Below, in pieces: positions 12,098-63,050 of a stretch of DNA of 64,000 nucleotides. The stretch is taken from contig PUQB01000591.1 of NCBI GenBank assembly GCA_003024785.1, positions 1-64,000 of the forward strand. The letters are read 5' to 3'. The DNA comes from Selaginella tamariscina (taxonomy: Eukaryota > Streptophyta > Lycopodiopsida > Selaginellales > Selaginellaceae). Every line of letters begins with the position of its first letter. Position 1 is the first letter of the stretch. The notes under the pieces were generated by a model. That model worked only from the letters and a program-made list of their open reading frames with translations. It was not told the origin of the DNA and did no database searches. Position numbers and translations under genes: made by a program.

Positions 12098-13520
12098 TGA
12101 GGACAGTGGATGATAGATGATGAACGGTGTTATCCAACTGTTACAATGCACTGGCGGTTGACGATAGTGGAGGAAACAGGCAGCATCGGTTATGCAATTG
12201 ATATGCTTATGTTAATGACAAGAGCAAGAAGAACAAAAATAGAAGCTGAATGGCGTTCATTTCTCACATAAGCAGAGTCATCATTCATAAGATGATGTTG
12301 TCTCAATGTTTCAGAATAACTTGAACTCTTTTAGTTTTTAGTGGATAATACCCCGTGTATTGCAAGCCATAGCTTTGATCCTCTCTCAAGCACCTCAGAT
12401 TGCTCCAAATACATACCCACACTTGCATAGATATTTGCTATCAACAGATATGCACCATCCTCCTTGTCATTCGACCTTACCACCTTCTCAAACATCTCCT
12501 TCCCCACTTCCACCTTGTTTCATTTCTTACAAGCACTTAACACATCTTCCATGTAATCACATTAGCTCTTCCACCCATCAAATTTACCACCTCAACCGCG
12601 TCATGTACAAGATTTGCACGTCCAAGCGTATCAATCAAACAGTGGTAATGTTGTACACTAGGTTCCAGATGATACTTTTCAATCATCAAGTACCTCCTTT
12701 CTCTACCAAATCAGAGTGACTACAAGCCACAAACAAATGTTGCACTGTTAACTTGCAAACATACCCTGAAAGCTCTCAAACAGCCTTCCTGTGTTTCCAT
12801 CTCGGCTATACCCAGCAACCAATGAACTCCATGTGATTGAGTGTCTGCTACACATCGATCCGAAAACAGCCTCCGCATTGAGCATTGAAGTACATTTACC
12901 ATACAAATCTACCGAGTTGCCAATAAACACGAGTCCTTTCTACAAACCTCACCATGGACAGCCAGTCCTGTGTCAAACCCAGCTAATTACAGCATGATGA
13001 TAAAGCAGCCAGGACTGTCCGAGCATTTGGTTCACAGTTGATACACTGAAACAGCTCAAGAGCCAACTTGTCTTCCCCATTCTCTACACATCCCTGGATC
13101 AAACTAGTCCATGACACAGCACTGTGAGATGGCATTCCGTCGAAGACCATCCTCGCACTTACCATACTACCACATTTGGCATACATATCAACAAGGCTGT
13201 TACCAATGTAAACATCAGTTGTCGGTCCAGATATGCATCCCCTTCTCGAGAAGCTCTTGCTTTTCCCCTTTCCCAGCAAGAACACAACATGCTAGCAGCG
13301 CACCAACATAGGATGTAGAATCCGGTGGGCACGTCATATAGTTGAATAGCTCAAGAGCCAGCTCCGACTCCATACCACTTTGTGCATATCCCATTATCAA
13401 GTGATTCCATGAAACCACGTCATGCATCCGATCAAAAACCCGGCGAGCGTCAAGCATGCTCCCACATTCTACATACATTTCAATCAATGAGTTGGCAACG
13501 AAACTGTCAACACAAGACAT
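12098..13520 (-). pseudogene. Degraded partial duplicate of the PPR gene located at 46.3-47.8 kb
   Basis: Nearly identical to 46330-47750 in the same orientation, including 3' flank words (ATGATGAACGG, CAGCATCGGTTATG), the E region (MEVGKEMFEKVVRSNDKEDG) and PPR repeats (LVDMYAKCGSMVSARMVFD). Compared with the 46 kb copy it has deletions near 12530, 12700-12765 and 12930-13000, and loss of the CGTGAAGG stretch near 13426. It retains VENGEDKLALELF in frame, where the 47.3 kb copy is frameshifted. It stops within GTCAACACAAGACA at 13520. Not functional. Confidence 0.88.
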
Positions 13521-18505: not shown

Positions 18506-19104
18506 TGTTAAGACCCGATACAGGATACAGAATTCCGGATACAAGATACGTTGCAGGATATTCCTACAAGGATTCCAGATACAGGATACGGTCACAGGAT
18601 ATTCTTACAGGATATACCATAGGATATGCCTAGAGGATAAGGGACATGTGGACTCATCTTAGCCTCATGCATGCAGCCACTTTACATGCATGCAACCACT
18701 TTTAGCACTCATGCCTAGATTAGCTCTTGGAGTTGTGAGCATAAAAGCTCCGACCTAATTGTTGTATAATCAGTTACTATCAACACCAGTCTTACTACAA
18801 TCAATCTTGTCTTGTCTTGTTCTTGTCTTGTTTCTTGTTTCTCCTTGTCTCGCTCATGGATCTGTCCTACTCCTGTCTCGCTCCTGGATCCTGTCCTTCT
18901 CCTGTCTTGTTCCGGATCCTGTCTTGTTTCTGTCTTGTTCCTGGATCCTATCCTGTGCCTTCCTGTTTTGCTCCCGGATCCTATCCTGTTCTGTCTTGCT
19001 CCTGAGTTGTTGAGTTCCTGTCTTGCTCTCCGTCCTGCTCTGAGTCAAACCTTCTTGTTCTTGGAATCCTGCTCTCTTCCTGGTTCCTAGATCGTGGCTT
19101 AACA
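18506..19104 (+). repeat. 5' LTR of the older Ty3 element
   Basis: U3 begins with degenerate GATACAGGATACAGG arrays. A TATA-like CATAAAAG lies at 18740-18747 and AATCAGTTACTATCAA at 18768-18783. R/U5 is made of repeated CCTGTCTTG..CCTGGATCC words. Ends GGCTTAACA. Confidence 0.9.
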
Positions 19105-19106
19105 GT

Positions 19107-19122
19107 TTGATAGTAACTGATT
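19107..19122 (+). promoter_or_regulatory. Putative primer-binding site of the older Ty3 element (self-complementary type)
   Basis: TTGATAGTAACTGATT begins 2 nt after the LTR end and is the exact reverse complement of LTR positions 18768-18783. It does not begin with the TGG expected opposite a tRNA CCA end. Confidence 0.7.
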
Positions 19123-19193
19123 TTATAGCTCTTCGTTTTCCAGCTACTTTTTTTCCTTGATTCTTTTCCTTTTTCTTTCAACGCGAGCACCAA

Positions 19194-19674
19194 ATGTTGC
19201 TTCATGAGCTAGCCACTTTGCGCCAAGTGGTCACCGATCTGCAAGGTTCCACCAATGCAGCACATGCAGCTGCTGATGCATCCTCCAAGGCTGCTGCGCA
19301 GGCTCTCTCTCAGGCATCGGTAGTTCCCTCTTCATCGAACTTTTCTTCGGAACCAAAGATCAACATGCCAGAAAAATTCAGTGGCAATTGTGTCAATTTC
19401 CAAGGTTTCATGAATTAGATCTGGCTCTTGATCCGCATGCAACCACATCGCTACTCGACTGATGCACAAAAGGTGAGTCTTTTGGCATCCTTACTAAGTG
19501 GATCTCCACGGGCTTGGGTTGCCCCCTTATTAGAGTTTGACAACCCATTAATGAAAGACTTTGAAGGTTTCGTGGCTGCCTTTGAAACCTACTTTGGAGA
19601 TCCTGATAAGTACCGTTCTGGATGCACGAAGTTACGGAAGCTCACTCAAGAATCCCGACCAGCTTCCATCTATG
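19194..19674 (+). pseudogene. gag, first part (older Ty3 element)
   Basis: Encodes the Gag N-terminal region (MLLHELATLRQVVTDLQGST, INMPEKFSGN). Relative to the younger copy, the first codons (ATGGCTGATTTTGAGCAC) are deleted. An in-frame TAG follows FQGFMN at about 19416. The sequence is cut at 19674 by the younger element and resumes at 25868. Confidence 0.85.
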
Positions 19675-20248
19675 TGTCACAACCCGATACAGGATACAGG
19701 ATGCAGGATACAGGATTCCGGATACAGGATACAAGATGCAGGATTTCGGATATAGGATACGGGTTACAAGATATTCCTACAGGATATACTTATAGGATAT
19801 GCCTATAGGATATGCTACAGGATATGCTACAAGATATGCCTAGAGGATAAGGGACACTATTCTTAGCTCATGACTAAATTAGACTCATGACTAGATTAGC
19901 TTGGAGTTGTGAGCATAAAAGCTCCGACTTAATTATTGTACAATCAGTTACTATCAACACCAGTCATTCTACGATTATTCTTGTTCCTTGTCTTGTCTTG
20001 TTCTTGTCTTACTCTTTCCTCCTGCTCCTGTCTTGCTCCGGATCCTGTCTAGTTCCTGTCTTGTTCCTGGATCTCCTGCTTCCTGTCTTGCTCCCGATCC
20101 TATCCTGATCCTGTCCTGCTCCTGGATCCGTCTGTTCCTGTTCCTGTTCCTGTTCCTAGTTCCTGTCCTGCTCTCGTCCTGTTCCTGAGTCAAGCCTTCC
20201 TGTTCTGGAATCCTACTCGCTTCCTGGTTCCTGGATCGTGGCTTGACA
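19675..20248 (+). repeat. 5' LTR of the younger Ty3 element
   Basis: Contains the U3 GATACAGG array, a duplicated CATGACTA(A/G)ATTAG segment, TATA-like CATAAAAG at 19914-19921, then CAGTTACTATCAA at 19945-19957 and CCTGTCTTG-type repeats in R/U5. Ends GGCTTGACA. Confidence 0.93.
19914..19957 (+). promoter_or_regulatory. LTR core promoter and predicted RNA 5' end matching the PBS
   Basis: TATA-like CATAAAAG at 19914-19921. About 30 nt downstream is CAGTTACTATCAA (19945-19957), where transcription would normally start. The same arrangement recurs in the LTRs at 18506 and 25293; in the LTR at 30310 the word has one change (CATTTACTATCAA). Confidence 0.65.
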
Positions 20249-20250
20249 GT

Positions 20251-20263
20251 TTGATAGTAACTG
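20251..20263 (+). promoter_or_regulatory. Putative primer-binding site of the younger Ty3 element (self-complementary type)
   Basis: TTGATAGTAACTG, 2 nt after the 5' LTR end, is a 13-nt perfect reverse complement of 19945-19957 in the LTR. No TGG start and no obvious match to a plant tRNA 3' end. Confidence 0.72.
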
Positions 20264-20341
20264 CTTTCATAGCTCTCGTTTCCTAGCTACTTTTTTTTCC
20301 TTGATTCTTCCTTCGTTTTCTCCTTTCTTTCTTTCATAATC

Positions 20342-21312
20342 ATGGCTGATTTTGAGCACTTTCAACGCGAGCACCAAATGTTGCTTCATGAGCTGGCCAC
20401 TTTGCGCCAAGTGGTCACCGATCTGCAAGGCTCCACCCATGCGGCACATGCAGCTGCTGATGCATCCTCCAAGGCTGCTGCGCAGGCTCTCTCTCAGGCA
20501 TCGGTGGTTCCTTCTTCATCGAACTTTTCTCCGGAGCCGAAGATCAGCATGCCAGAGAAGTTCAGTGGCAACCGTGCCGATTTCCAAGGTTTCCTGAATC
20601 AGATCCGGCTCTTGATCCGCATGCAACCACGCCGCTACTCGACGATGCACAAAAGGTTGGCCTTTTGGCATCCTTACTAAGTGGATCTCCACGAGCTTGG
20701 GTTGCCCCTTGCTGGAGCGTGACGACCCATTGATGGAAGATTTGAAGGTTTCGTGGCTGCCTTTGAAGCCTGTTTGGAGATCCTGATAAGTACCGTTCTG
20801 CATGCACAAGTTACGGAAGCTCACACAAGGATCCAGACCAGCTTCCGTTTATGCATCCGAATTTCAGCAATTGTGCACGAACATTCCATGGGACGAGACT
20901 GCATTGATCGAACACTTCCGTTTTGGGCTGAGGGATGACGTGAAGGACCTTCTCCTTACATTACCGGATGCTCAAACGTTAGCGGAGATCATGCAACAGG
21001 CCGTTCGCTGCGACAACCGTTTGTTCGAGCGCCGTCAGGAAAAATTCCGTCAGCAGTTCCTGCCAGCCAATCCTGTAGCCGTAGCACATGTTCCTACGAC
21101 ACCTTCTGGAGCAGTTCCTATGGAGGTTAACAAATCCAAGCGTGGCCCACTTTCAACTGCTGAGAAGCAACGTCGTCGGGGAGAACCTATGCTTGTATTG
21201 TGGTGCAGCAGGACACAAGGTGGCGGAATGTCCTAATAAAGCCAGAAAGTTCAAGACGCGTGAAGCCGAAGCTGAAGTTCAGTCGGAAAACTTCAATGTC
21301 CACTTCGTCTAG
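20342..21312 (+). pseudogene. gag (younger Ty3 element), frameshifted
   Basis: Starts MADFEHFQREHQMLLHELAT. It includes the Gag core (FSGNRADFQGFLNQIRLLIR, HFRFGLRDDVKDLLLTLPD, IMQQAVRCDNRLFERRQ), a CCHC zinc knuckle (CLYCGAAGHKVAECP) and a TAG stop at about 21310. Small deletions relative to the older copy occur near 20644, 20716, 20738, 20774 and 20807, and a further shift lies near 21190. As it stands it would not give a full Gag. Confidence 0.88.
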
Positions 21313-24300
21313 GAGCCGCGAAGTTGGACGTAGGTGCAGGCTCCATTGGTGCTATACTTCCAAGTTTCCTGTACACATTCGCCTCAATAACGAGAGCTCA
21401 AGGAGTTTGCCCTGTTAGACACTGGTGCAAATGCATGTTTCATGGATGACACTTTTGCAGCTCAGCATGGCATTCCGGTGGTGAAGTTGAAGCGTGCAGT
21501 TCCTGTAGAGGTGGCCGATGGTCGTTTGATTGCTTCTGGCGCAGTTACCCACGCTACCACACCTCTCTCTTGCAGTCATGGCGCATTCAACTGTTCGATT
21601 TCCTTCAACTTGATCAAGACTCGGTCGACTCCCATCATTTTTGGCATGCCATGGTTCGTTGTTGCAAATCCGCAGATCGACTGGAGGTCTAGGACGCTCA
21701 CGTTTTCCTCTCCAGCAGCCAGGATCAATCCTGTACCTTCCTGCGTGCAGGATACATCCTTGGTGTCTGAGGCAGTACAAGCTACAGGATTGACCGTGCC
21801 TGTTCCTGTACCAGTGTTGAAGACTCCTCCTCGACAGGATTCACCTCATGTCAGTTCCTCAGCACATCCGCAGGCTTCTCCACTCCTGTAAGTTTGCGGA
21901 TTCCTGTACAGGGTTCTTCCAATCCTGTATCAGTGTCGAAGGTTCCTCCTCAACAGGATCCACCTCCTGTTGGTTCGTCAGCACACTCACAGGCTCTCCT
22001 CACTCCTGTGCAACCACGGACTTCTGTACAGGATTCTTCCAATCCTGTACACTCGTCAACATCCACACTTTTCTCCCAATCCTGCCTCTTTTGTTACTCT
22101 GTTCTGTTCCACCCCCAAGATCCTTCCTCTTTTTCAGTCACAGCTCCCTCCTTCTCCTCTCCGAGTTCTTACCACTACCATGCATGAACTTACCACTGAT
22201 CCTGCTCCTTTCCACCTTTTTGCCTTTCAAGTAACTCCTACGTCCTCTTCTACCTTTCCTGTGTCTGACTCTCCTGTTTTTCAATCTCCTTCTCCTCTCT
22301 TTCCTTCTCCTCCTTCTTCCTACCATCCAAGTACCACGACTTTAAGGACGTTTTTGACAAGCACAAGGCTCAGTTCTTCCTGTTCACAGGTCCTACGACT
22401 GTCCTATTGATCTTGCAGAAGGAAAGACTCCACCGTTCGGACCGATTTACGCATTGTCACCCACAGAGTTGGAGGTTCTTCGCCAGTACATCGAGGACAA
22501 CTTGGCATCCGGCTTCATTCGTCACTCAAAGTCCCCTGCAGGAGCGCCTATCTTCTTTGTCAAGAAGAAGGATGGGAGCTTACGTTTGGTTGTGGACTAC
22601 AGGGGTTTGAATCAAGTACCATTCGGAATCGGTACCCGTTGCCATTGATCCCGGAACTTCTCGATCGGCTGCGAGGAGCAAAGGTGTTCACGAAGATCGA
22701 CTTACGAGGGGCCTACAACCTTGTACGGATTCGTCCAGGCGATGAGTGGAAGACTGCCTTTCGTACAAGGTATGGACACTTCGAGTACACGGTGATGCCT
22801 TTCGGCCTTACCAATGCCCCAGCCGTGTTCCAACACATGGTGAACGACATCTTTCGTGACTTCTTGGACCAGTTTGTGGTGATCTACCTCGACGACATTT
22901 TGATTTTCTCCAAGGACCAGGCGGCACATGACAAGCATGTACGATTGGTTCTACAGCGGCTTCGCGAGCATGGCCTGTATGCGAAGTTGGAGAAGTGTTT
23001 TTTCGATAGGGATTCTGTGGAGTTCTTGGGCTACATCGTCTCTCCTGCTGGCGTTTCCATGGACATGCACAAGGTGAAGACCATCGTGGAGTGGGAGAGG
23101 CCCAAGTCTGTACGAGATGTACAATGTTTCCTTGGCTTTGCAAACTTCTACAGGCGGTTCATACAGGACTTCTCCAAGCGTGTACTTCCACTCACGGAAC
23201 TCACCAAGCGCACAGAGGTTTTCTCTTGGTCCGACAAGGCGGAACATGCATTCACAACACTCAAGGACACCTTCACGACAGCTCCGATTTTAGCACATCC
23301 TGATCCTTCTCGTCCTTTCTTCGTTGAAGCAGATGCCTCGGATTTTGCAGTAGGATCCGTCCTATCACAAGTTGGAGAAGACAAGTTGCTTCATCCTGTA
23401 GCTTTTCACTCTCGTAAGTTCCTTCGGCGGAGATCAATTACGAGATTCATGACAAGGAACTCAAGGCCATTGTGGATTCGTTTGAGGAGTGGCGGCATTT
23501 CCTGGAAGGTGCTGCGCATCCTGTACAAGTTCTTACGGATCACAAGAACCTGGAGTATTTCAAACGGCTCGAGTTCTCAGTCGGCGACAGGCTAGGTGGG
23601 CGGAGTTCCTATCACGTTTTGATTCGTCATCGTCTACAGGCCCGGTTTTCGGAATGGCAAGGCGGACGCATTGTCTAGGCGCTCTTACCTTGCACCGCCC
23701 GGGCGATCCTGCATTGACTGTCAAAGGCAAGTGTTGTTGGGTCCTGATCGATTCCGGCTTGCGGCACTACAGGTTCATCAGGCTCCAGCAAATTCAACAC
23801 TCCTACAGGACATCCGTTCGCAGTTGGCTACAGACGACTTGGCAAAGAATGTGTTCTCACACATTCATCCTGACGTTGCAAGTTCCTCTTCCTCCAGTTC
23901 CCGTCAGACTACAACCTGTTCACCATACAGGATGGACTCCTGTACCGGGAAGGTCTCCTGTACGTTCCTGTTGGTGTTTGCAGGACTCGTGTGGTACAGG
24001 ATTGTCATGATACCCCGGCTACAGGACATTTTGGTGTGGCCAAGACAGTTGAGTTGGTGACTCGCAACTATTGGTGGCCTGGGTTGCGAGGTTTTGTGGA
24101 AAGGTTTGTACGGAGTTGTGACACCTGCAACAGGTCGAAGATGCCTCGTCATGCACCCTCTGGTCTTCTTCGTCCTCTTCCTGTTCCTTCTGCTCCTTGG
24201 AGATATTTTCTATGGATTTCCTCACAGATCTTCCTCCTTCTCGCGGATTTCGATGCAGTTCTTGTGGTGGTTGACCGTTTCACCAAACAGGCTCATTTCC

Positions 24301-25280
24301 TACCATGTAACAAGACTGCTACAGGCCAGACAACTGCTGAGTTGGTGATCCGTGAAGTGTTCCGACACCATGGTCTTCCTGAGAGCATTGTTTCGATCGA
24401 GGTCCACAATTCATGTCCAAGTTTTGGCGAGAGCTTCTTCGGAGTCTACAGGTTAAAGCGGATCTTTCTTCAGGATATCACCCGCAAACTGATGGCAGTC
24501 AGAACGCACAATTCAGACCTTGGAGCAATATCTTCGCTGCTTCATCAGTTACCAACAGGATAATTGGTTGGACCTTCTTCCTATGGCGGAGTTTGCCTAC
24601 AACAACTCCATTCACGCATCTACAGGCCAGACACCTTTCTTTGCTCTTACAGGCACCATCCACGTTTTGACTTTGCTCCTCCTGCTTCTCCTTCTTCCGC
24701 TCCTGCAGTACAGGATCGTCTTCAGCATCTTCGCAGGTACAGGATGATCTCCGGGTTCATCTTCAGCAGGCACAGGAACGGTACAAGCATCATGCTGATG
24801 CTCACCGTCAGCCGGCACCTGCATACAAGATTGGTGATCTCGTGTGGCTTCTTCGTCGACACATTCGCACCAACAGGCCTTCTTCTAAGTTGGATTTTCA
24901 ACGATTGGGCCCTTACAGGATCGTGGCGGAGGTAAATCCTGTAGCTTTCCGACTCGAGTTACCATCCACGGTGAAACTTCATCCTGTGTTTCACACCTCC
25001 TTGTTGGAGCCGTATCATCCTTCTTCTCTTCCTGGTCGTGCTTCTTCTCCTCCCCCTCCTGTGGTCATTGCTGGTGAACCTGAGTACGAAGTTGCAGCCA
25101 TCCTTGATTCTCGTCTTCATCGCCGCCAACTTCAATACTTGGTGGATTGGAAAGGTTATTTGCCTACCGATCGCACTTGGGAACCTGCATCCAACTTACT
25201 CCATGCTTCTTCCAAAGTTGCTGCTTCCATCGGCATTATCCTGCTAAACCAGGTCCTAAGACTCGTGGAACTCGTCCTTA
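21313..25280 (+). pseudogene. pol with protease, RT, RNase H, integrase and chromodomain (younger Ty3 element), frameshifted
   Basis: Domain landmarks in order: protease active site FALLDTGANACFMDD (about 21410); RT ([49 protein letters not shown] at about 22880); RNase H ([25 protein letters not shown]); integrase zinc finger (ATGHFGVAKTVELVTRNYWW, SCDTCNRSK), catalytic-core pieces ([53 protein letters not shown]); GPY/F-like LGPYRIVAEV; C-terminal chromodomain (YEVAAILDSRLHRRQLQYLV, DWKGYLPTDRTWEP). Frame changes occur near 21350-21400, 22330-22450, 22620, 23430, 23620, 23690, 24210, 24400 and 24500. Chromovirus lineage of Ty3/gypsy; clade not assigned. Confidence 0.92.
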
Positions 25281-25292
25281 GGGAGGAGGTGC
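25281..25292 (+). promoter_or_regulatory. Polypurine tract of the younger Ty3 element
   Basis: GGGAGGAGGTGC immediately precedes the 3' LTR start TGTCAC; the purine core is 25281-25289. The older element has AGGAGGAGG in the same place before 30310. Confidence 0.8.
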
Positions 25293-25862
25293 TGTCACAA
25301 CCCGATACAGGATACAGGATTCCGGATACAGGATACAGGATGCAGGATCAGGATACAGGATACGGGTTACAGGATATGCCTGCAGGATATTCCTACAGGA
25401 TATACCTATAGGATATGCCTATAGGATATGCTACAGGATATGCCTAGAGGATAAGGGACACTATTCTTAGCTCATGACTAGATTAGACTCATGACTAGAT
25501 TAGCTTGGAGTTGTGAGCATAAAAGCTCCGACCTAATTGTTGTACAATCAGTTACTATCAACACCAGTCATTCTACGATTATTCTTGTTCCTTTCTTGTC
25601 TTGTTCTTGTCTTACTCTTTACCTCTTGCTCCTGTCTTGCTCCCGGATCCTGTCTAGTTCCTGTCTTGTTCCTGGATCCGTCCTGCGCTTTCCTGTCTTG
25701 CTCCCGGATCTTATCCTGATCCTGTCCTGCTCTTGGATCCATCCTGTTCCTGTTCCTGTTCCTGTTCCTAGTTTCTGTCCTGCTCTCGGTCCTATTCCTG
25801 AGTCAAGCCTTCCTGTTCTCGGAATCCTACTCGCTTCCTGGTTCCTGGATCGTGGCTTGACA
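25293..25862 (+). repeat. 3' LTR of the younger Ty3 element
   Basis: Matches 19675-20248 with a rearranged number of GATACAGG units in U3. Ends GGCTTGACA and is followed by the CTATG target-site duplication. Confidence 0.93.
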
Positions 25863-25867
25863 CTATG

Positions 25868-26303
25868 CATCCGAATTTCACCAACTTTGCACGAACATTC
25901 CATGGGACGAGACTGCATTGATCGAACACTTCCGTTTTGGGTTGAGGGATGACGTGAAGGACCTTCTCCTTACGTTACCAGATGCCCAAACATTAGCGGA
26001 GATCATGCAACAAGCTGTTCGTTGTGACAACCGTTTGTTCAAGCGTCGTCAAGGAAAGATCCTGTCAGCAATTCCTGCAAACCAATCCTGCAACTGTGGT
26101 ACATGTTCCTGCACCACCTTCTGGAGTAGTTCTTTATGGAGGTTGAGAAATCCAAACGTGGCTCTCTTTCCGCTGCTGAGAAGTAATGTCGCCGCAGTGA
26201 GAACCTATGCTTATATTGTGGTGAAGCAGGACACAAGGTGGCAAAATGTCCTATTAAAGCTAGGAAGTTCAAGACGCGTGAAGTTGAAGCTGAAGTTTAG
26301 TCG
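25868..26303 (+). pseudogene. gag, second part (older Ty3 element)
   Basis: Resumes exactly where 19674 stops (HPNFTNFARTFHGTRLH in one frame; HFRFGLRDDVKDLLLTLPD in the working frame). The zinc knuckle region is CGEAGHKVAKCP-like. Carries an in-frame TAG near 26298 and other indels. Confidence 0.85.
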
Positions 26304-29300
26304 GAAAACTTCAATGTCCACTTCGTCTAGGAGCCGCGAAGTTGGACGTAGGTGCAGGCTCCATTGGTGCTGCTCATACCATTTCATCACTCAAGTTTCA
26401 TGTACACATTCATTTTAATAATCGAGAGCTCAAGGAGTTTGCCTTGTTAGACACTGGTGCAAATGCATGCTTCATGGATGACACTTTTGCAACTCAACAT
26501 GGCATTTCGGTGGTGAAGTTGAAGCGTGCAGTTCCTGTAAAGGTGGCCGATGGGCGTCTGATTGCTTATGGCGCAGTTACCCATGCTACCGAACCTCTCT
26601 CCTGCAGTCATGGCACATTCAACTATTCAATTTCCTTAACTTGATCAAGACTCGGTCGACTCCCATCATTTTGGGCATGCCATGGTTCATTTTTGCAAAT
26701 CCGCAAATCGACTGGAGGTCTAGGACGCTCACGTTTTCCTCTCCAACAGTTAGGATCAATCATGTACCTTCCTGTGTGCAGGATACATCCTTAGTATCTA
26801 AGGCAGTACAAGCTACAGGATTGACCGTGCCTATTCCTGTATCAGTGTTGAAAACTCCTCCTCGACAAGATTCACCTCATGTTAGTTCCTCAGCACATCC
26901 GCAGACTCTCTCCACTCATGTAAGTTTGCGTTTTTCTATACAGGGTTCTTCCAATCCTGTATCAGTGTCGAAGGTTCCTCCTCAACAGGATCCACCTCCT
27001 GTTGGTTCGTCAGCACATTCGCAGGCTTTCCCCACTCCTGCACAACCACGGACCTGTACAGGATTTTTCCAATCCTGTACACTTGTCAACATCCACATAG
27101 GTTTTCTCCAATCCTGCCTCTTTGTTACTCTGCTTCTGTTCCACCCCCCAAGATCCTTCCTCTTTTTCAGTCACAGCTCCCTCCTTCTCCTCTTCGAGTT
27201 CTTACCACTACCATGCATGAACTTGTCACTGATCCTGCTCCTTTCCACCTTTTTGCCTTTCAAGTAACTTCTACGTCCTCTTTTACCTTTCCTGTATATG
27301 ACTCTCCTGTTTTTCAATCTCCTTCTCCTCCTTCTTCCCTACCATCCAAGAATCACGCCTTTAAGAACGTTTTTGACAAGCACAAGGCTGCAATTCTTCC
27401 TGTTCACAGGTCCTACGACTGTCCTATTAATCTTGCGGAAAAAAAACTCCACAGTTGGACCGATTTATGCATTGTCACCCACAGAGTTGGAGGTTCTTCG
27501 TCAGTACATCGAGGACAACTTGGCATTCGGCTTCATTCGTCACTCAAAGTCCCCTGCAGGAGCGCCTATCTTCTTTGTCAAGAAGAAGGATGGGAGTTTA
27601 CATTTGGTTGTGGACTACAGGGTTTGAACCAAGTCACCATTCGGAATCGGTACCCATTGCCATTGATCCCGGAACTTCTGATCGGCTGCGAGGAGCAAAG
27701 GTGTTCACGAAGATTGACTTACGAGGGGCCTACAACCTTGTACGGATTCGTCCAGGCGATGAGTGGAAGACTGCCTTTCGTATAAGGTATGGACACTTCG
27801 AGTACACGGTGATGCCCTTCAGCCTTACCAATGCCCCAGCCGTGTTCCAACACATGGTGAACGACATCTTTCGTGACTTCTTAGACCAGTTTGTGGTGAT
27901 CTACCTTGATGACATTTTGATTTTTCCAAAGACCAGGCGGCACATGACAACACGTACGATTAGTTCTACAGCGGCTTCCGAGCATGGCCTGTATGCGAAG
28001 TTGGAGAAGTGTTTTTTCTACAGGGATTCTGTGGAGTTCTTGGGCTACATCGTCTCTCCTGCTGGCGTTTCCATGGACATGCACAAGGTGAAGACCATCG
28101 TGGAGTGGGAGAGGCCCAAGTCTGTACAAGATGTACAATGTTTCCTTGGCTTTGCAAACTTCTACAGGCGGTTATACAGGACTTTTCCAAGCGTGTACTT
28201 CCACTCACGGAACTCACCAAGCGCACAAGGGTTTTCTCTTGGTCTGACAAGGCGGAACATGCATTCACAACACTCAAGGACGCCTTCACGACAGCTCTGA
28301 TTTTAGCACATCCTGACTCTTCTCGTCCTTTCTTCGTTGAAGCAGATGCCTCGGATTTTGCAGTAGGATCCATCCTATCACAAGTTGGAAAAGACAAGTT
28401 GCTTCATCCTGTAGCTTTTCACTCTCGTAAGTTCCTTTCGGCGGAGATCAATTACGAAATTCATGACAAGGAACTCAAGGTCATTGTGGATTCGTTCGAG
28501 GAGTGGCGGCATTTCCTGGAAGGTGCTGCGCATCCTATACAAGTTCTTATGGATCACAAGAACCTGGAGTATTTTCAAATGGCTCGAGTTCTCAGTCGAC
28601 GACAGGCTAGGTGGGCGGAGTTCCTATCACGTTTTGATTTCGTCATCGTCTACAGGCCTGGTTTTCGGAATGGCAAGGCGGACACATTGTTTAGGCGCTC
28701 TTACCTTGCACCGATCCCGGGCGATCCTGCATATGACTGTCAAAGACAAGTGTTGTTGGGTCCTGATCGTTTCCGGCTTGCGACAGTACATGTTCATCAG
28801 GCTCCAGCAATTCAACACTCCTACAGGACATCCGTTCGCAGTTGGCTACAGACGACTTGGCAAAGAATGTGTTTTCACACATTCATCCTAACATTGCAAG
28901 TTCCTCTTCCTCCAGTTCCCGTTCAGACTACAAGTTATTTACCATACAGGATGGACTCCTGTACCGGGAAGGTCTCCTGTACGTTCCTGTTGGTATTTCT
29001 AGGACTCGTGTGGTACAGAATTGTCATGATACCCTAGCTACAGGACATTTTGGTGTAGCCAAGACAGTGGAGTTGGTGACTCGCAACTATTGGTGGCCTG
29101 GGTTGCGAGGTTTTGTGGAAAGGTTTGTACAGAGCTGTGACACTTGTAATAGGTCGAAGATGCCTCATCATGCACCCTTTGGTCTTCTTCGTCCTCTTCC
29201 TGTTCCTTTTGCTCCTTGGAGATCCATTTCTATGGATTTCCTCACAGATCTTCCTCCTTCTTGTGGATTTGATGCAGTTCTTGTGGTGGTTGACCGTTTC

Positions 29301-30300
29301 ACTAAGCAGGCTCATTTCCTACCCTACAACAAGACAGCTACAGGTCAGACAACTGCTGAGTTGGTGATCCGTGAAGTGTTCCGACATCATGGTCTTCCTG
29401 AGAGCATTGTTTCTGATCAAGATCCACAATTCATGTTCAAGTTTTGGCGAGAGCTTCTTCGGAGTTTACAGATTAAAGCAGATCTTTCTTCAGGATATCA
29501 TCCGCAAATTGATGGGCAGTCCGAACGCACAATTCAGACCTTGGAACAGTATCTTCGTTGCTTCATTAGTTACCAGCAGGACAACTGGTTGGACCTTCTT
29601 CCAATGGCGGAGTTTGCCTATAACAACTCCGTTCACACATCTACAGGACAGACACCTTTCTTTGCTCTTACAGGCCACCATCCACGTTTTGACTTTGCTC
29701 CTCCCGCTTCTCCTTCTTCCGCTCCTGCAGTACAGGATTGTCTCCAGCATCTTCGTCAGGTACAGGATGATCTCCGAGTTCATCTTCAGCATGCACATGA
29801 ATGATACAAGCATCATGCTGATGCTCACCGTCAACCGGCACCTGCATACAAGATTGGTGATCTCGTGTAGCTTCTTCGTCGACATATTCCACCAACAGGC
29901 CTTCTTCTAAGTTGGATTTTTAATGATTGGGCCCTTACAGAATTGTGGCAGAGGTCAATCCTGTAGCTTTTTGACTCGAATTACCATCTACGGTGAAACT
30001 TCATCCTGTGTTTCACACCTCCTTGTTGGAGCCGTATCATCCTTCTTCTCTTCGGTCGTGCTCTTCTCCTCCCCCTCCTGTGGTCATTGATATTGAATCT
30101 GAGTACGAAGTTGCAGCCATCCTTGATTCTCGTCTTCATCGCCGCCAACTCCAATACTTGGTGGATTGGAAAGGTTATTTGCCTACTGATCGCACTTGGG
30201 AACCTGCATCCAACTTACTCCATGCTTCTTCCAAATTGCTGCCTTTCATCGACATTATCCTGCTAAACCAGGTCCAAGACTTGTGGAACTCGTCTTTAGG
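26304..30300 (+). pseudogene. pol (older Ty3 element), frameshifted
   Basis: Same domain order as the younger copy: protease FALLDTGANACFMDD (about 26445), RT with VVIYLDDILIFP (about 27890-27930), RNase H through [20 protein letters not shown], and a long uninterrupted integrase stretch (28842-29804). GPY region and chromodomain (SEYEVAAILDSRLHRRQLQ) end near 30290. Frameshifts near 27430, 27630, 27690, 27925, 28175 and 28820; in-frame stop and frame change near 29805-29870. Confidence 0.9.
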
Positions 30301-30309
30301 AGGAGGTGC

Positions 30310-30893
30310 TGTCATGACCCAATACAAGATACAGGATTCCGGATACAGGATATGAGTTGCAGGATATTCCTATAGGGATTCCGGATACAGGATACGGTCA
30401 TAGGATATTCTTACAGGATATACCACAGGATATGCCTAAAGGATAAGGGATATGTGGACTCATCTTAGCCTCTGCATGCATGCAACCACTTTTAGCACTC
30501 ATGCCTAGATTAGCTCTTGGAGTTGTGAGCATAAAAGCTCCGACCTAATTGTTGTACAATCATTTACTATCAACACCAGTCTTACTACGATCAATCTCTT
30601 GTCTTGTTCTTGTCTTGTTTCTTGTTTTCTTCTTGTCTCGCTCTGGATCTTGTCCTACTCCTGTCTCGCTCCTGGATCCTATCCTGCTCCTATCTTGTTT
30701 CCGGATCCTGTCCTGTTTCTGTCTTGTTCTTGGATCCTGTCCTGCGCCTTCCTGTTTTGCTCCCGGATCCTATCATGTTCTTGTCTTGCTCCTGAGTTCC
30801 TGAGTTCCTGTCTTGCTCTCCGTCTTACTCCTGAGTAAGCCTTTTTGTTCTTGAATCCTGCTCTTTTCCTGGTTCCTAGATCGTGACTTAACA
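30310..30893 (+). repeat. 3' LTR of the older Ty3 element
   Basis: Starts TGTCATGACCC, ends GACTTAACA and matches 18506-19104. The predicted transcript-start word is CATTTACTATCAA, one substitution from the other three LTRs. Confidence 0.9.
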
Positions 30894-41675: not shown

Positions 41676-44600
41676 TGTCATAGATTTTACTATGATTCGA
41701 CCCTTTGCTTTGAACATTAGCTGTTGTTACTTACTGTACTATGTTGATAAGCCCTAATGACACCCAGCTGGACCATCACTAAATATCCAAGTGCACTAAG
41801 TGGGCTTGTTTCTTCTACACCTAAATATTTGCAAGAAACTCTAGGCGAAGCTAGCACTTCCATATAGAAAACTCTTACCTTGGTTTTCTGTGTCCTAGTT
41901 AAGTTAATGGCTAGTTCCGGTGAGTTTGACATGTCAGATATGTTTAGAAATACCCTAGGTTTGACAGGTTAGGGTTTAGGGGTCGATGGATAACTCACCA
42001 AGTACATTCCCTCTGGGAATGAGATTCCGTGCCAGCCCACTTACGTAAACAGGAAAATGAGGGGGGGGGCTCTCTCTCACATAAATAAGGTAGTATATAG
42101 GAGTGAGGGTTCTTGGGTTCATGACTAAGCTTGTTACTCTTCTCCCAGTGCAAGCTCTAGCCTGTGTTGTTAAGGCACAACCTCTGTTGTGCTGCCCTAA
42201 CTTCCAGATGACAGTGGTACGTCCCACATTCGGGGTAGCTTACCTTTAAAATTGGCGAATCCATGCTTGGAAGGTCTTATCGAAATGCACGTTCCAAGAG
42301 GCAGAGGTTGAGGCTTGTCTCTAACCTCCTCCTCCACGTTAAGCTAGGTGTAGCACTCATGGCCAAGCAAGGCACATTCATATCCTTGTCCAACTGTGAG
42401 CATGGGATCTTGTTTGACGGGTTCACATTACCCAGTTCACTAAGGGATTCTAGAGTTAGCATTTAGGAGCCACGTTTGTGGCACTTGGTACAACTCTTGA
42501 ATCTAAGGGCTATGGCATGATAACCCACATTAGGGAAGGCAGTGTCACATGGAGATGTGACACTAGGCTAAATGTCACACGATACAACGCCCGAGGCACA
42601 TGTTGTGTCATGGGTTTGTCGCCAAGAGGTTGGATACTCTAGCAAATAGGCATGCTTGGGCTCGCACTAGGGTGCTAAGCCTTGAGCATCCAAGGGTTGA
42701 ACAAACTAGGAGCCCTTTCGTGAGGCACTCGCAAGGTCATGTACTTAGGGTTATCCAAACCTAGCCTTAAGGAATTTGCTTAGCAAGAACACTCGTGTCT
42801 GTCTACGGTGCACACTCATGTCTTAACTAAGTACTAACCCTAGGTCTAGGGTATGACTTGGCCACTCAAACCCTTAAGGGTTAGCCGTGGTTCAAGGTAC
42901 CCCTTGTTGTCATAAAGGGGTTGTATTCCTAGATGAAGGTGATTCCTCAAGGGGTAAGTTGTCAGAGTTTTAACCCAAAGGGCCAACACGTGGCTGCCAG
43001 GTGGCCATTCGGTGTCATCACCCTGTGTGAGCAACGCCAGAACAACCCCAACGACCCCTAAGGTTAGACTCTAATGCCCAAGTGGACAGGAGACTTAGGG
43101 TTTAGCCTAAGTCTCCTTAGAGTGTCTACCCCCAAAACCCTTGAGGAATAACCCTAGTTGACTTAGGGTTTAGCCTAAGTCTCCCTAGAGTGTCTGCCCC
43201 CAAAACCCTTGAGGGATAACCCTAGTTGACTTAGGGTCTTGCCCTAGAAGACCTAGACAGGCTCATGCCCTAACCCCCATCAAGGAGACGTGTGTTCCAC
43301 ACATACCCCTAGACAGAGCTAAGGCATCGTCACTTACCCCTTGAGGAATCACCCTCATCCGGGAGTACAACCCCTTTAGGGCGACAAGGGGTACCCTGAA
43401 CCACGACTAACCCCTAAGGGTTTGAGTGGCCAAGTCATACCCTAGACCTAGGCCTAGTACTTAGTGAGGACACCAGTGTTCTGCTAAACAAACTCCCTAA
43501 GGCTAGGTTTGGGATAACCCTAAGCACATGACCTTGCGAGTGCCTTACGAAAGGGTTTCTGCTAATGAGCTTAGGTTGTTCAACCCCTGGATTCCAAGGA
43601 GAACACTCCCTAGCCAAGTGTGCCAAAGCACACCTAGTTATGAGACCTAACCTCCCTTGAGCGGATGCCCAAGGCTTAGCACCCTAGTGCAAGCACAAGC
43701 ATGCATGTTGGTTAGAGTATCCAACCCCTTAGCGACAAGCCCATGACATAACACCAAAGGGCATGCCTCGGGCGTTGTACCATGTGACGTCTAGCCCAGT
43801 GTTACATCTCCATGTGACACTGCCTTCCATGATGTGGCTATCATGCCATAGCCCTTAGATTCAAGAGTTGCACCAAGTACCACAAACGTGGCTCTTAAAT
43901 GCCAACTCTAGAACCCTTAATGAACCTTCAGGAACTAGGTAACATGAACTTGTCAAACAAGATCCCACGCCCACAGTTGGACAAGGACACGGATGTGTCT
44001 TGTTTGGCCGTGAGTGCTACACCTAGCTTGACGTGGAGGAGGAGGCTGGAGACAAGCTCAACCTCTGCCTCTTGGAACATGCATTCCGACAAGACCTCCC
44101 AGGCATGGATTCGCCAACGTTAAGGGTAAGCTACCCTGAAGGTGGGACGTACCCTGCATCTGGAAGTTAGGGCGGCACAACAGAGGGTTGTGCCTTGACG
44201 ACACAAGCTAGAGCTTGCACCGGGAGAAGAGTAACGAGCTCAGTCATGAACCCAGGAACCCTCACTCCTATATACTACCTTATTTATGTGACAAGCCCCC
44301 CCCTGTTTTCCTGTTTACATAAGTGGGCTAGCACTGAAATCTCATTCCCAGAGGGAACATACTTAGTGAGTTATCCATCAACCCCTAAACCCTAACCTGT
44401 CAAACCTGGGGGTATTTTTAAGCATATCCGACATGCCGAACTCACCGAAACTAGCCATTAATCCAATCGAGACACGGAAAACCAAGGTAGGAGTTTTTAA
44501 AAGGTAAGTTCTAGCTTCGCCTAGAGTTTCCTGCAAATACCTAATAACACCCGGCCGGACCATCACCAGATACCCAAGTGCACTAAGCGGGCCTGTTTCC

Positions 44601-46524: not shown

Positions 46525-48836
46525 TTAGTGGATTAATGCTTGACAATACCTCCTCTCAAGTACCTCAGATTGCTCCAAATACATACCCACACTTGCATAG
46601 ATATTTGCCATCAACAGATATGCACCATCCTCCTTGTCATCCGACCTTACCACCTTCTCAAACATCTCCTTCCCGACTTCCACGTTATTCCATTTCCTAC
46701 AAGCACTTAACACAATCTTCCATGTAATCACATTAGCTCTTCCACCCATCTTATTTACCACCTCAACTGCGTCATATATAAGATTTGCACGTCCAAGCAT
46801 ATCAATCAAACAGTGGTAATGTTCTACACCGGGTTCCAGATGATACTTTTCCATCATCAAGTCAAAATAGTACCTCCCTTTATCTATCAAACCAGAGTGA
46901 CTACACGCAGAAAGAACACAAACAAATGTTGCACTGTTAACTTGCACACCTTCTTCACACATACCCTGAAAGCTCTCAAACAGCCTTCCTGTGTTTCCAT
47001 CTCGGCTATACCCAGCAACCAATGAACTCCATGTGATTGAGTTTCTGCTACACATCGATCCGAAAACAGCCTCTGCATTGAGCATTGAACTACATTTACC
47101 ATACAAATCTACCAACGAGTTGCCAATAAACACATCATTTTCGAGTCCCTTTCTACAAACCTCACCATGGACAGCCAGTCCTGTGTCAAACTCAGCTAAA
47201 TTACAGCATGCTGATAAAGCAGCCAGGAATGTCCGAGCATTTGGTTCACAGTTGATACACTGAAACAGCTCAAGAGCCAACTTGTCTTCCCCATTTCTAC
47301 ACATCCTTGGATCAAACTAGTCCATGAAACAACACTGTGAGATGGCATTCCGTCGAAGACCATCCTAGCACTTACCATACTACCACATTTGGCATACATA
47401 TCAATAAGGCTGTTACCAATGTAAACATCAGTTGTCGGTCCAGATTGAAAGTGTATATGCATCCCCTTCTCGAGCAGCTCTTGCTTTTCCCCTTTCCCAG
47501 CAAGAACACAACATGCTAGCAGCGCACCAACATAGGATGTAGAATCCGGTGGGCACGTCATATAGTTGAATAGCTCAAGAGCCAGCTCCGACTCCATACC
47601 ACTTTGTGCATATCCCATTATCAAGTGATTCCATGAAACCACGTCACGTGAAGGCATCCGATCAAAAACCCGGCGAGCGTCAAGCATGCTCCTACATTCT
47701 ACATACATTTCAATCAATGTGTTGGCAACGAAACTGTCAACACAAGACAGGAGCAAAGCCTGAGAGTGTAAAGCCATCCCGTTCTCCAAGCCACCTTCCT
47801 CTTCTTCTTCTCTTGCGAGTCTCACACAAGCCATGAGTGCAGCAAGGAAAGTCCGTGGGTTGGGCACACAGCATCTCTTGAAGATGTCCAAAGCAAGCCT
47901 GTTATAACCATTCTCCACACATGCTAGCATCATACTTGTATAGGATACAACATTGTGAGATGGCATAAGTTCGAAGACAGCTTTAGAATTACTGAAGCTC
48001 CCACATTTCGTATAGGCTTCAACGAGTGTGTTCGCCACAAAGAGATCAAAGGAGCCGCTTATTATAGCTCGAAAATGAAGGTGTTTCACTTGTTCTTCTA
48101 CTTTTGCATGGTTACCAGCTTTATACGCCGTTAGTGCCGCAACAAAGGTCCGATGATTCGGAGCAAAGCCTTCATGCTGCATTTGTGTGAAAGACTCAAG
48201 TGCATGCGGCATGTCATTATTGTTTATGCAACCCATGATTAATGTGTTCCATGATACTAGATCAGGAGAAGGCAGCATGTTAAAAACAGACCAAGACTGT
48301 GCCAAACTACCACATTTTGCATACATATCGGTCAGTGCGTTTGTCAAGTAAATGTCCGTGTCAAAACCGATCCTTGCTGCTTGTGAGTGGATTTGCATTC
48401 CCAGCTCAAGTGACATACGATCGTTGGTCTTTGCTGCAAGGCTCGAGCAAGCTGTGACTGCAGCTACGTAACTCCTAGAATCTCAGGGTTCAGGAGTTGT
48501 GGTGAACAAGTTGAGTGCACAGAAATCTTCCCCATTCGCTGCGTATCCCAGGATCATGTTGTTATATGAAACCACTGTGTGGCATGGCAGCTTGGTAAAG
48601 ATGCCCTCAGCTTCTAGGAGACACTCACATTTGGCATACATATTGATCAGAGTGTTTGCAACTGTGATGTCCGAGTAGTAACCACTTTCTAGTGCATACA
48701 AATGCAGTTGCTTGCCTCGCTTCAGATCCTTAGAGTTAGCACATTCCTTGACCTCCTTGAGCAAGGTTGTCTTGTTGCACTGATTTACATGCAACTCCTT
48801 GAGAGATTTATAAGCACATTGCCTGGTCCATGTCAT
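46525..48836 (-). pseudogene. PLS-class PPR gene, E-type, with an in-frame stop and a frameshift
   Basis: Would encode an organelle-type PPR protein of about 770 residues starting at an ATG at 48836 (MTWTRQCAYKSLKELHVNQC). Repeats include LINMYAKCECLLEAEGIFT, LTDMYAKCGSLAQSWSVFN, LIEMYVECRSMLDARRVFD, LVDLYGKCSSMLNAEAVFG. The E-type end is ITWKIVLSACRKWNNVEVGK and GAYLLMANIYASVGMYLEQS; there is no DYW domain. An in-frame TGA at about 48483 interrupts PEP-DSRSYVAAVTACSSLA without changing frame, as a CGA-to-TGA change would. A one-base deletion near 47295 shifts CVENGEDKLALELF; the duplicate at 13.0 kb retains the frame there. No introns. Likely a pseudogene, although C-terminal parts are well preserved. 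Confidence 0.85.
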
Positions 48837-59830: not shown

Positions 59831-60175
59831 CAGGCTCCCAAGTGCGTTCACCAGGTGGATAATCGATCCAGTTGGCCAATAACGCCGGAGGAGCCACACT
59901 TGGTCACCAATTGTGAATGCTGGAGGAGAGGAACGGGAACGATCAGCAGCTTGTTGTTGCAAATCCCGAGCGCATTGAAGATGATGCTGCACTTCTTCAT
60001 GGACCTGTCGGAGATGCTCAACACGATCATCGGCAGCAGTGGTGAGGCCATGAACCACGGGCAAGCTGTAGGACCAGCGAGGATGAACACCAGAGAAAAG
60101 ATGCATGTCAGAGACGAGCGGGAGAGGATACTTGTTTGGAATGGTGACCTTATTCAGATCTCGATAGTCCACCAT
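59756..60175 (-). pseudogene. pol remnant: RT start fused to integrase C-terminus and chromodomain relic
   Basis: [20 protein letters not shown] joins [14 protein letters not shown] at about 60108, continuing through [18 protein letters not shown] and [13 protein letters not shown]. The chromodomain-like [19 protein letters not shown] is present in another frame near 59850. An internal deletion product. Confidence 0.85.
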
Positions 60176-61347
60176 GAGCCGGAGACTTCCATCCTTCTTA
60201 AAACAAAGAATACTGGAGCACCAGCCGGTGATCGCGAATGACGGATAAATCCGGTGACAAGATTCTCCTCAATGTATTTCCTCAATGTCTCCAACTCTGT
60301 TGGTGAGAGACCGTAAATGGGACCGGAGGACGGCTGCTTACCCTCAACGAGATCGATAGGACAGTCGTACTCACGGTGCGGTGGCAAGGCAGAAGCTTTC
60401 TTTTTGTCGAAGACGTCTGCGAAATCGGCATACTGCTTTGGTAAGGCAGGAGGAACAGAAACATCCTTAGCAGAGCAGGGATAGACTTTGATCGCGAACA
60501 CGGATGCTGGGTCATGTCGGCTATCTTTCTTGAACTGCTTCAAGGTGATATGCGAGACTCGAAGTGGAGGAGGAACTGGAACAGGATCGGAATCAAAGAG
60601 TGTGGCTGGAGTTGAAACAGCTGGGAAACTGTTCATGAAACGTTCTCTCCAACCAGGATCCACCAACTCGATCCACGGCAAACCAAGGATAATCGTAGAG
60701 TCTGGAATAGAAACAACACTGAAGGAGATGTTGCACACAGCACCGCAAGCAACGACCTCAACGAACTCCGTGTCATTTTTACCGCTCCAGATTTGATCTC
60801 GTCCATCAACGACCCGTACAGAACCAGGAGTCTTCAAAGGATGTAGACGGATCCCGTGCCTGACAGCAAAATTCTTGTCGATGAAATTTGCGTTCGCTCC
60901 GCTATCCACCAAAGCTTTACCAGAGAACTCCACCTCTGGTGTCTTCAGCTGCACCGGAACATGGAACGGCTTGCACACCTTCGTGGATGGAATGGATCCA
61001 AGATGAGGAAGGGAAGATGTTATGAGTGAAGAGCCTTGAGGAACATGAGTTGTTCCACGGCAATCCAGCCGGACGGCTCCTATTCGGGCTGGATCTTCTC
61101 GTTTCCCGAGCACAGCAAGGGCCACTTCACGAGCTTGTTTTGGACGTCGATGACAATTCTCCAACTTGTGGTACGGGTCCCCACAGTACAAACAAAGCTT
61201 GTACTGAATCCGCTTCTGACGTTCGGTTGGCAAAAGCTTGCCTCGGCGTGATCGCCCTAATTCCATCGGGGATGGTTCTACTGAGGAAGATGATGAATCA
61301 GCAGATGAGGGAACAGGGACTGCAGAAATGGAAGAAGACGGCACCAA
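60176..61347 (-). pseudogene. gag zinc knuckle-protease-RT N-terminus in one frame (deleted Ty3 element)
   Basis: One open frame encodes the Ser-rich Gag end, zinc knuckle (CLYCGDPYHKLENC), protease active site (KALVDSGANANFIDKNFA), ILGLPWIELVDPGW and the RT beginning ([33 protein letters not shown]). Here the gag end and pol are in the same frame, unlike the 19.7 kb family, where a TAG separates them. Confidence 0.85.
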
Positions 61348-61972
61348 GAAGAAAGAAGGATGCCGACGTTCTTGTTTCCTCGATCAACCGGTTGTCACAA
61401 CGAATTGCCAACTCGATGCTGGTGAGGGTTTCCGGAACCGCAAAATTCAGCAACATGTCTTTGACCTCGTCCTGCAACCCCGACCGAAAACCTCCTTGAG
61501 AGCACGATCTCCCCATGTGACATCACAAGCAAGAAGTTGAAACTTCGATGCGTACTCTGCTACCGACATACCCCCTTGGTGAAGCTGACGGAGTTTGGTG
61601 ATGGCAGCACTCTCACGATCCACGTCACTGAACATCGCCGTGAACCATTCCATAAACTCATCAAAATTCCAAGGATCGATCATTGTTCTCTAGCAAGGCT
61701 GAGAACCATGAAGAGCAGAACCAGAAAGCAGCGACCCGATCAATCCAACCTTAATGGGTTCTGTGCTGTAGCGCCTCGGCTGCATCACGATCCGCAGACG
61801 AACTTGATTGAGAAAACCTCGGAACTTCGATCGGGTACCATCGAACTTTTCGGGCATGCTGATCTTCGGCTCTGGAGAATTCACGCTGTCGGAGCTGATC
61901 ATTCTCCAGGTGTAGTTGTTTGAGCTGCTGCTGGAGGGCAGCAACTTGCTCATGAAGAGCATGCTCGGACAT
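61298..61972 (-). pseudogene. gag N-terminal region (deleted Ty3 element), frameshifted
   Basis: Starts MSEHALHEQVAALQQQLKQL at 61972 (coiled-coil-like), then SPEPKISMPEKFDGTRSKF, FRGFLNQVRLRIVMQPRRYS and FRSGLQDEVKDMLLNFAVPE in changing frames. Clearly homologous to Gag of the 19.7 kb family (shared PEPKISMPEKF and MQPRRYST words). Frame changes near 61850, 61700 and 61490. Confidence 0.85.
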
Positions 61973-62555: not shown

Positions 62556-63050
62556 TCATTACTTTTCATTTCTAGCTTGTGTCATTAAGGCACAACCCTG
62601 TGTTGTGCCGCCATAACTTCTAAACAATAGGGGTACGTCTCACTTTTGGGGTAACCTACCCTTAACATTGGTAAATCCATGCCTGGAAGGTTTTGTCAAA
62701 TTGCGCGTTTTAAGAGTTATAGGTTGAGGCTTAACTTCAAACTCCTCCTCCATGTCAAGCTAAGAGCAACACTCACAACTAAGCAAGACTAAGTTCATTA
62801 CTTTTCTCCATTACAAGCTCTAACTTGTGTCATTAAGGCACAACCCTGTGTTGTGCCGCCATAACTTCTAAACAATAGGGGTACGTCTCACTTTTGGGGT
62901 AGCCTACCCTTAATATTGGTGAATCCATGCCTGGAAGGTTTTGTCAAACTGCGCGTTTTAAGAGTTATAGGTTGAGGCTTAACTTCAAACTCCTCCTCCA
63001 TGTCAAGCTAAGAGCAACACTCACAACTAAGCAAGGCACGTTTGTGTCCT
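62556..63050 (+). repeat. Tandem duplication of about 250 bp inside the large LTR
   Basis: The segment with AAGGCACAACCCTGTGTTG at about 62589 is repeated at about 62839 with few differences. The solo LTR copies at 42 and 44 kb have one unit. Confidence 0.85.

Follow-up and report, generated by a model that had tools for sequence, protein, structure and literature searches.

Probable self-priming of reverse transcription in a high-copy chromodomain Ty3 retrotransposon family of the lycophyte Selaginella tamariscina

With what does a plant chromovirus prime its minus-strand DNA when the sequence behind its 5′ LTR begins unlike a site for a tRNA 3′ end? The question is raised by the window, by which we mean the whole 64,000-nt stretch analysed here (positions 1 to 64,000 of contig PUQB01000591.1 from S. 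tamariscina), in which sequence reading and blastn place two copies of a single chromodomain Ty3 family, one nested in the other: an outer copy at 18506–30893 and an inner copy at 19675–25862 that was inserted within the gag region of the outer one. We conclude with high confidence that this high-copy family would prime minus-strand DNA with its own RNA, in the manner of Tf1.

Two nested copies and their primer-binding sites

The main parts of the two copies are as follows (window coordinates).

18506–19104, plus strand: 5′ LTR of the outer (older) copy, 599 nt, with TG..CA ends, 89.6% identical by blastn to 30310–30893
30310–30893, plus strand: 3′ LTR of the outer copy, 584 nt, placed by blastn against the outer 5′ LTR
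19675–20248, plus strand: 5′ LTR of the inner (younger) copy, 93.4% identical over 19700–20248 to 25304–25862
25293–25862, plus strand: 3′ LTR of the inner copy, placed by blastn against the inner 5′ LTR
22639–23592, plus strand: frame with reverse transcriptase (RT) and partial RNase H, inner copy (PF00078, 1.7e-32; PF17919, 6e-22)
24842–25411, plus strand: integrase C-terminal SH3_Tf2-1 and group I-like chromodomain, inner copy (PF24626, 3e-16; PF00385, 1.2e-12)
25280–25289, plus strand: polypurine tract AGGGAGGAGG, read from the sequence, directly 5′ of the inner 3′ LTR

The inner copy is flanked by an exact target-site duplication (TSD), CTATG at 19670–19674 and 25863–25867, and the outer one by TCTAT/TCTGT. 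K2P distances are 0.087 between the outer LTRs, 0.048 between the inner LTRs and 0.216 between the inner and outer 5′ LTRs, and the reading frames of both copies are fragmented. Pfam domains found in the family are RT, RNase H, integrase zinc and core, SH3_Tf2-1 and Chromo; LTRs with a TSD, RT and RNase H ahead of integrase, and a chromodomain at the integrase C-terminus identify it as a Ty3/gypsy chromovirus. The Y, W and Y of the window chromodomain align with CDYL2 chromodomains, and we take these three to be the aromatic cage residues.

Each 5′ LTR terminates in ACA, which is followed by GT and then by the primer-binding site (PBS) TTGATAGTAACTG. The first-pass annotation had claimed that the PBS behind this GT spacer is complementary to a word inside its own LTR, with a TATA-like box some 27–30 nt above the word, and the complementarity was recovered at the positions it had given, with 13 nt in the inner and 16 nt in the outer copy.

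19107–19122, plus strand: PBS of the outer copy, 16 nt complementary to 18768–18783
20251–20263, plus strand: PBS of the inner copy, 13 nt complementary to 19945–19957
18768–18783, plus strand: self-primer word of the outer 5′ LTR, at which R is proposed to begin, complement of the outer PBS
19945–19957, plus strand: self-primer word of the inner 5′ LTR, at which R is proposed to begin, complement of the inner PBS
25549–25561, plus strand: primer word of the inner 3′ LTR, exact
30561–30573, plus strand: primer word of the outer 3′ LTR, one mismatch
19914–19928, with the same at 18740, 25518 and 30530, plus strand: TATA-like box with conserved core promoter, within the longest stretch that is invariant among the LTRs

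The box sequence CATAAAAGCTCCGAC is exact in all four window LTRs, and in each of them the primer word starts 30 nt after the first base of its ATAAAA. In the four-LTR alignment the longest invariant run (29 nt, from 19900) holds the TATA box, and the third-longest is the 18-nt TTACTATCAACACCAGTC, which is made of the end of the primer word and the following CACCAGTC. With up to one mismatch the 13-mer is present at 6 sites in the 64 kb, whereas 100 shuffles averaged 0.15 and never reached 6. A TGG-starting PBS of the tRNA 3′-end type is present after neither window 5′ LTR, as had also been claimed.

These positions fit the course of events known from Tf1, for which the available text of the cited studies reports that self-priming was established by experiment (PMC4600332), that the first 11 bases of the RNA pair with the PBS and RNase H cuts between bases 11 and 12 (PMC7175516), and that, of the three duplexes involved, one joins primer and PBS while the other two pair LTR sequences with sequences next to the PBS (PMC10085805). 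In the Selaginella family, transcription would start at or within 1–2 nt of CAGTTACTATCAA, with the TATA-like box some 30 nt above it, and the first 11–13 nt of the RNA would fold back onto the PBS, two nt past the 5′ LTR. This pairing may be assisted by a second helix, in which the sequence that follows the primer is joined to the end of the LTR. Cleavage by the element's RNase H after ...UAUCAA would then release the primer, from which RT would continue into U5.

The 13-mer is abundant in the host genome, with 2468 + 2482 = 4950 occurrences in the 300.7-Mb assembly and 1 + 7 = 8 for its reversed control. In a sample of 26 pieces of the same genome (260 kb), nine LTR words were located below the search anchor, six of them exact, two with one mismatch and one displaced by some 3 nt. 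The 260 kb also contained six more PBSs, with 0, 0, 0, 1, 1 and 2 mismatches; within 600 nt upstream, three had an exact complement of 12–13 nt, one had 6 nt and two had none, one of these last two having a single-change word upstream. Such mixed matches are expected of decaying copies and alone are no proof of maintenance. A divergent second family of the host genome (L035, 920–3800; 53% RT identity) has the same layout of TATA box and CAACACCAG, with no matching PBS in the one copy examined.

Covariation of primer word and PBS in related elements

The sampled copies of the host genome carry nearly one word. Searching bacterial genome contigs with an RT alignment yielded 31 loci, which evidently represent eukaryotic contamination of bacterial MAGs and assemblies. 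RT identity to the window family is 67–71% for L001–L007, from an uncultured Trichormus MAG, and for L008, from a Synechococcales MAG; for L029, also of the Trichormus MAG, it is 84%, over 89 residues only. The leader is missing in L003 and L006, leaving seven testable relatives (L001, L002, L004, L005, L007, L008 and L029). Any T[GA]ACA located 1700–2600 nt above the RT match was treated as a possible LTR end, the PBS was taken 2 nt later, and complementarity was counted from 6 nt up. With this anchor, whose form was picked after word–PBS matches had already been seen, the best values were 12 nt in L001 and L008, 11 nt in L002, L004, L007 and L029, and 7 nt in L005, all remaining anchors in these seven gave 0 nt, and the best value among other loci with anchors was 9 nt (L013). 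The first-pass annotation had looked to covariation of word and PBS as a check on its proposal, and the related elements bear it out: in six of seven the PBS stands at the same position and is an exact 11–12-nt complement of their own, differing LTR word. These words are ACTCTTGATCAA, AAGGCGAACAA (in three elements), AAGGTGAACAA and CAGTCTCGACAA, which makes five distinct primer words with that of the window. The mere 7 nt retained in L005 count against the self-priming reading, as do the PBSs of the host genome that have no full complement upstream and the L035 family with its unmatched layout.

Tallying the first 11 pairs in nine elements (the two window copies and the seven relatives) gave standard pairs in 95 of 99 cells, with all four failures in L005. 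Eight of the 11 pairs (4–11) vary with compensation, each showing two to four pair types, and pairs 1–3 (CAA/TTG) are invariant; L004 and L007 differ by a single change on either side of the duplex. When PBSs were permuted among elements, none of 20000 permutations reached the cognate pairing energy, and with six representatives the cognate arrangement alone (1/720) attained its score. Unlike words pair poorly with each other's PBS, and the near-identical AAGGCGAACAA and AAGGTGAACAA sets cross-pair. Moreover, the spacing from TATA to word is 27–32 nt in 11 of 11 LTRs, which is consistent with an RNA start at the word. In 7 of 9 elements the next bases after the word are CACCAG; L002 has CACAAG there, and L008 neither. 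The self-priming interpretation of the first-pass annotation is in this way backed in the relatives by covariation, PBS position and TATA spacing.

Several candidates were left outside the tally. In L024 a 14-nt match stands behind CTGACA and 3 nt; it was read by eye and missed by the automatic scans owing to Ns, its spacer length and the lack of a TATA motif; the 9-nt match near the LTR end of L015, also found by eye, is too short to count. Longer inverted pairs in L013, L014, L020, L023 and L027 are located elsewhere or AT-rich and were left uncounted, as was an AT-rich 10-nt pair in L011 that had passed a looser filter (CA and TATA). A loose criterion, CA 0–3 nt before any 11-nt inverted pair, gave 9 cases against a shuffle mean of 3.5 and maximum of 9 (200 shuffles), and hence no separation. 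Scans of IMG/VR with the RT piece and the RT alignment returned zero relatives.

Could the pairing be maintained for another function of the RNA, for instance in packaging, in dimerisation or in the control of translation? Minimum free energy (MFE) folds closed the word–PBS duplex in all eight leaders, fully or with 11 of 12 pairs, as any such complementarity would, so that these folds were not counted as independent evidence, and the support for priming is one of sequence complementarity. The downstream arm, however, sits exactly where a PBS is expected, 2 nt after the LTR end, and the related Tf1/sushi group self-primes according to the available text of PMC7175516 and PMC10085805; we therefore regard a role other than priming as improbable.

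It is still less probable that the primer is a tRNA of the host, whole or as an internal fragment, and that the LTR match is incidental. Leader reading by the LTR end can reveal tRNA priming, as one element illustrates: L026 (46% RT identity, from the same Trichormus MAG) has a TGGTATCAGAGC PBS 2 nt after its LTR, following GT, and we take TGGTATCAGAGC to be the ordinary initiator-tRNA PBS motif. The PBS of the window family does not begin with TGG, and each of the five differing PBS words is matched in the LTR of its own element; five word–PBS sets, the unlike ones pairing poorly across, are not expected of a fixed tRNA pool. In favour of tRNA, half-tRNA primers are described in plants, where 1/2 tRNA-Met or tRNA-Ile serves some copia lineages (PMC6317226, in the available text), and the search for host tRNA genes covered the window and the additional pieces, in which ARAGORN detected 0.

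That the words match merely because shared descent or chance has not yet let them decay is hardly credible: the two window copies do share descent and the copies of the own genome carry nearly one word, but six matches with up to one mismatch stand against 0.15 expected, the differing words of the relatives show compensating changes, and no permutation in 20000 was as good as the cognate set.

The sequences, the position, complementarity and covariation of word and PBS, the TATA spacing and the RT relationship are direct observations, from which we infer the RNA start, the cleavage and the priming, and Tf1-type self-priming, which is very likely, is the reading that they support best.

Predicted further helices of the leader

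In Tf1-type self-priming the primer duplex is accompanied by further pairing, and a candidate for its second helix (helix 2) was located in the inner copy.

19963–19976, plus strand: 5′ arm of helix 2 (U5-IR-like), GTCA and CTACGATT, coordinates derived from the predicted duplex
20234–20247, plus strand: 3′ arm of helix 2, adjoining the PBS where the LTR ends, in duplex with 19963–19976

The predicted duplex has −16.4 kcal/mol, where shuffled arms gave a mean of −8.5 and 5 of 1000 were as low. Across nine elements 30 of 20000 permutations were equally good, and 2 of 720 with the six representatives. In the shuffle control, 5 of 9 elements had at most 30 per 1000 shuffles as low; the counts were 102 in L004, 177 in L029, 469 in the outer window copy and 986 in L008, and by this control helix 2 is absent from the last two. 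Taken together, these energies support a predicted second helix of the Tf1 type. A third helix, which would involve sequence 3′ of the PBS, is not supported, since 4154 of 20000 permutations were equally good; L024 (5/500) and L007 (16/500) stand out individually, and 7 of 9 elements do not.

In L002, L004, L007, L008 and L029 the interval of U3 from the TATA box to R contains another inverted copy of the primer word. It forms with the word a U3/R hairpin of at least 12 base pairs and a 4-nt loop (−16.9 to −22.7 kcal/mol; at most 1 of 1000 shuffled arms as good), which covaries with word and PBS in these five elements. The hairpin is weaker in L024 (36/1000) and L005 (93/1000), and it was not found in the four window LTRs or in L001. 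Given an RNA start at the word, it would be present solely in the 3′ LTR of the RNA, where it might hide the second copy of the word and so leave the PBS to pair with the 5′ copy alone; alternatively, it might tie the two RNA ends together. That the hairpin is in either way a third arm of self-priming is a speculative suggestion, which we consider rather unlikely; such a hairpin goes unmentioned in the available text of the cited studies.

Placement of the family and other features of the window

RT matches were restricted to lengths of 0.55–1.75 of the query. Among the best 120 of 7531 such matches, 17 carry an organism label, one of them only as a code, and the labelled ones come from fungi, amphibians, fishes and a bacterial MAG, with no seed plant; the integrase search had no organism names among the 120 matches listed. 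A tree of 146 rows (117 of the 120 proteins, 27 of the 31 loci and the two window copies, the rest having been dropped for coverage), rooted on L026, joined the window copies with L001 and L006 (0.96), then with L002–L005, L007 and L008 (0.86), and then with Absidia (0.89). On the proteins and loci that make up this tree, membership of the Tcn1 clade is probable but not proven. Group I chromodomains are assigned by Novikov et al. (2012) to Tcn1 and also to Selaginella Galahad elements (PMC3350952, in the available text), and thus a group I chromodomain is not exclusive to Tcn1.

The first-pass annotation had hoped that self-priming was undescribed in plant chromoviruses, a hope that is disappointed by Neumann et al. 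(2019), who in the available text of PMC6317226 predicted it for the majority of plant Tcn1-clade chromoviruses. Like this clade of mosses and Selaginella, the window family has a group I chromodomain, no tRNA PBS, predicted self-priming and a lycophyte host. SM-Tcn1 of S. moellendorffii, in contrast, was without evidence of either tRNA priming or self-priming in the available part of Novikova et al. (2010; PMC2864245), whereas the match in the window is 13–16 nt long and covaries across relatives. Within the open-licence literature, a search for self-priming retrotransposons in Selaginella or ferns returned nothing on topic beyond these two studies. Among other predicted or proposed self-primers, Cryptococcus Tcn1 (PMC7175516) and the fungal and vertebrate Tf1/sushi elements Tj1 and sushi (PMC7175516, PMC4600332) share the proposed mechanism with the window family but differ in host kingdom, and the TAR-lineage copia elements of plants, Houba and Osr-1 (PMC6317226), are likewise predicted plant self-primers but belong to the Ty1/copia superfamily and are not Ty3 chromoviruses (all as given in the text available for these sources). 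With Tf1/Tf2 of Schizosaccharomyces pombe the window family shares a word at the RNA start that is complementary to the PBS and a PBS-adjacent helix; here, however, the host is a plant, the third helix of the pretzel is unsupported and the mechanism is deduced from sequence, whereas that of Tf1 is experimental. The window element is very likely a further member of the Tf1-type self-primers, with comparative support that exceeds what the available text of the cited studies gives: there, self-priming of plant chromoviruses had been predicted, with one published negative, and compensating changes, TATA spacing and a second helix are now added, in a family whose 13-mer is present thousands of times in one lycophyte assembly. 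With this, the mechanism becomes accessible to testing in a land plant.

The Trichormus MAG (source of L001–L007, L026 and L029) contains many eukaryotic LTR retrotransposons, and its name suggests the fern Azolla as their source. If so, such elements occur in ferns, where Novikova et al. (2010) had no Tcn1 clones and, in the available text, found Tcn1 elements confined to mosses and Selaginella among the plants surveyed (PMC2864245). The matches in this perhaps fern-associated cyanobacterial MAG hint at a range of the clade beyond mosses and Selaginella.

Other features were observed in the window. Four frames match PPR repeats, two of them also the E motif, and 12380–13519 is 91.8% identical to 46549–47749, the second of which overlaps a PPR frame; this pair is a duplicated PPR gene or pseudogene. 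Stretches of 41826–44539 and 62571–63650 are 76–87% identical, in inverted or direct orientation, and are probably further transposable elements. An open frame on the minus strand at 60154–61383 encodes a gag-polyprotein aspartyl protease domain. The Rfam search gave no match in the window or in L044, a further piece of the host genome. A BET bromodomain gene of the window has its best match in GTE3 of Selaginella moellendorffii (47% identity, 438 bits), followed by Diphasiastrum (223 bits); by these matches the host would be a Selaginella-like lycophyte, probably of a species other than S. moellendorffii. L044 itself contains direct repeats spaced about 2.95 kb apart and 97.6% identical over 7 kb, which form a tandem array.
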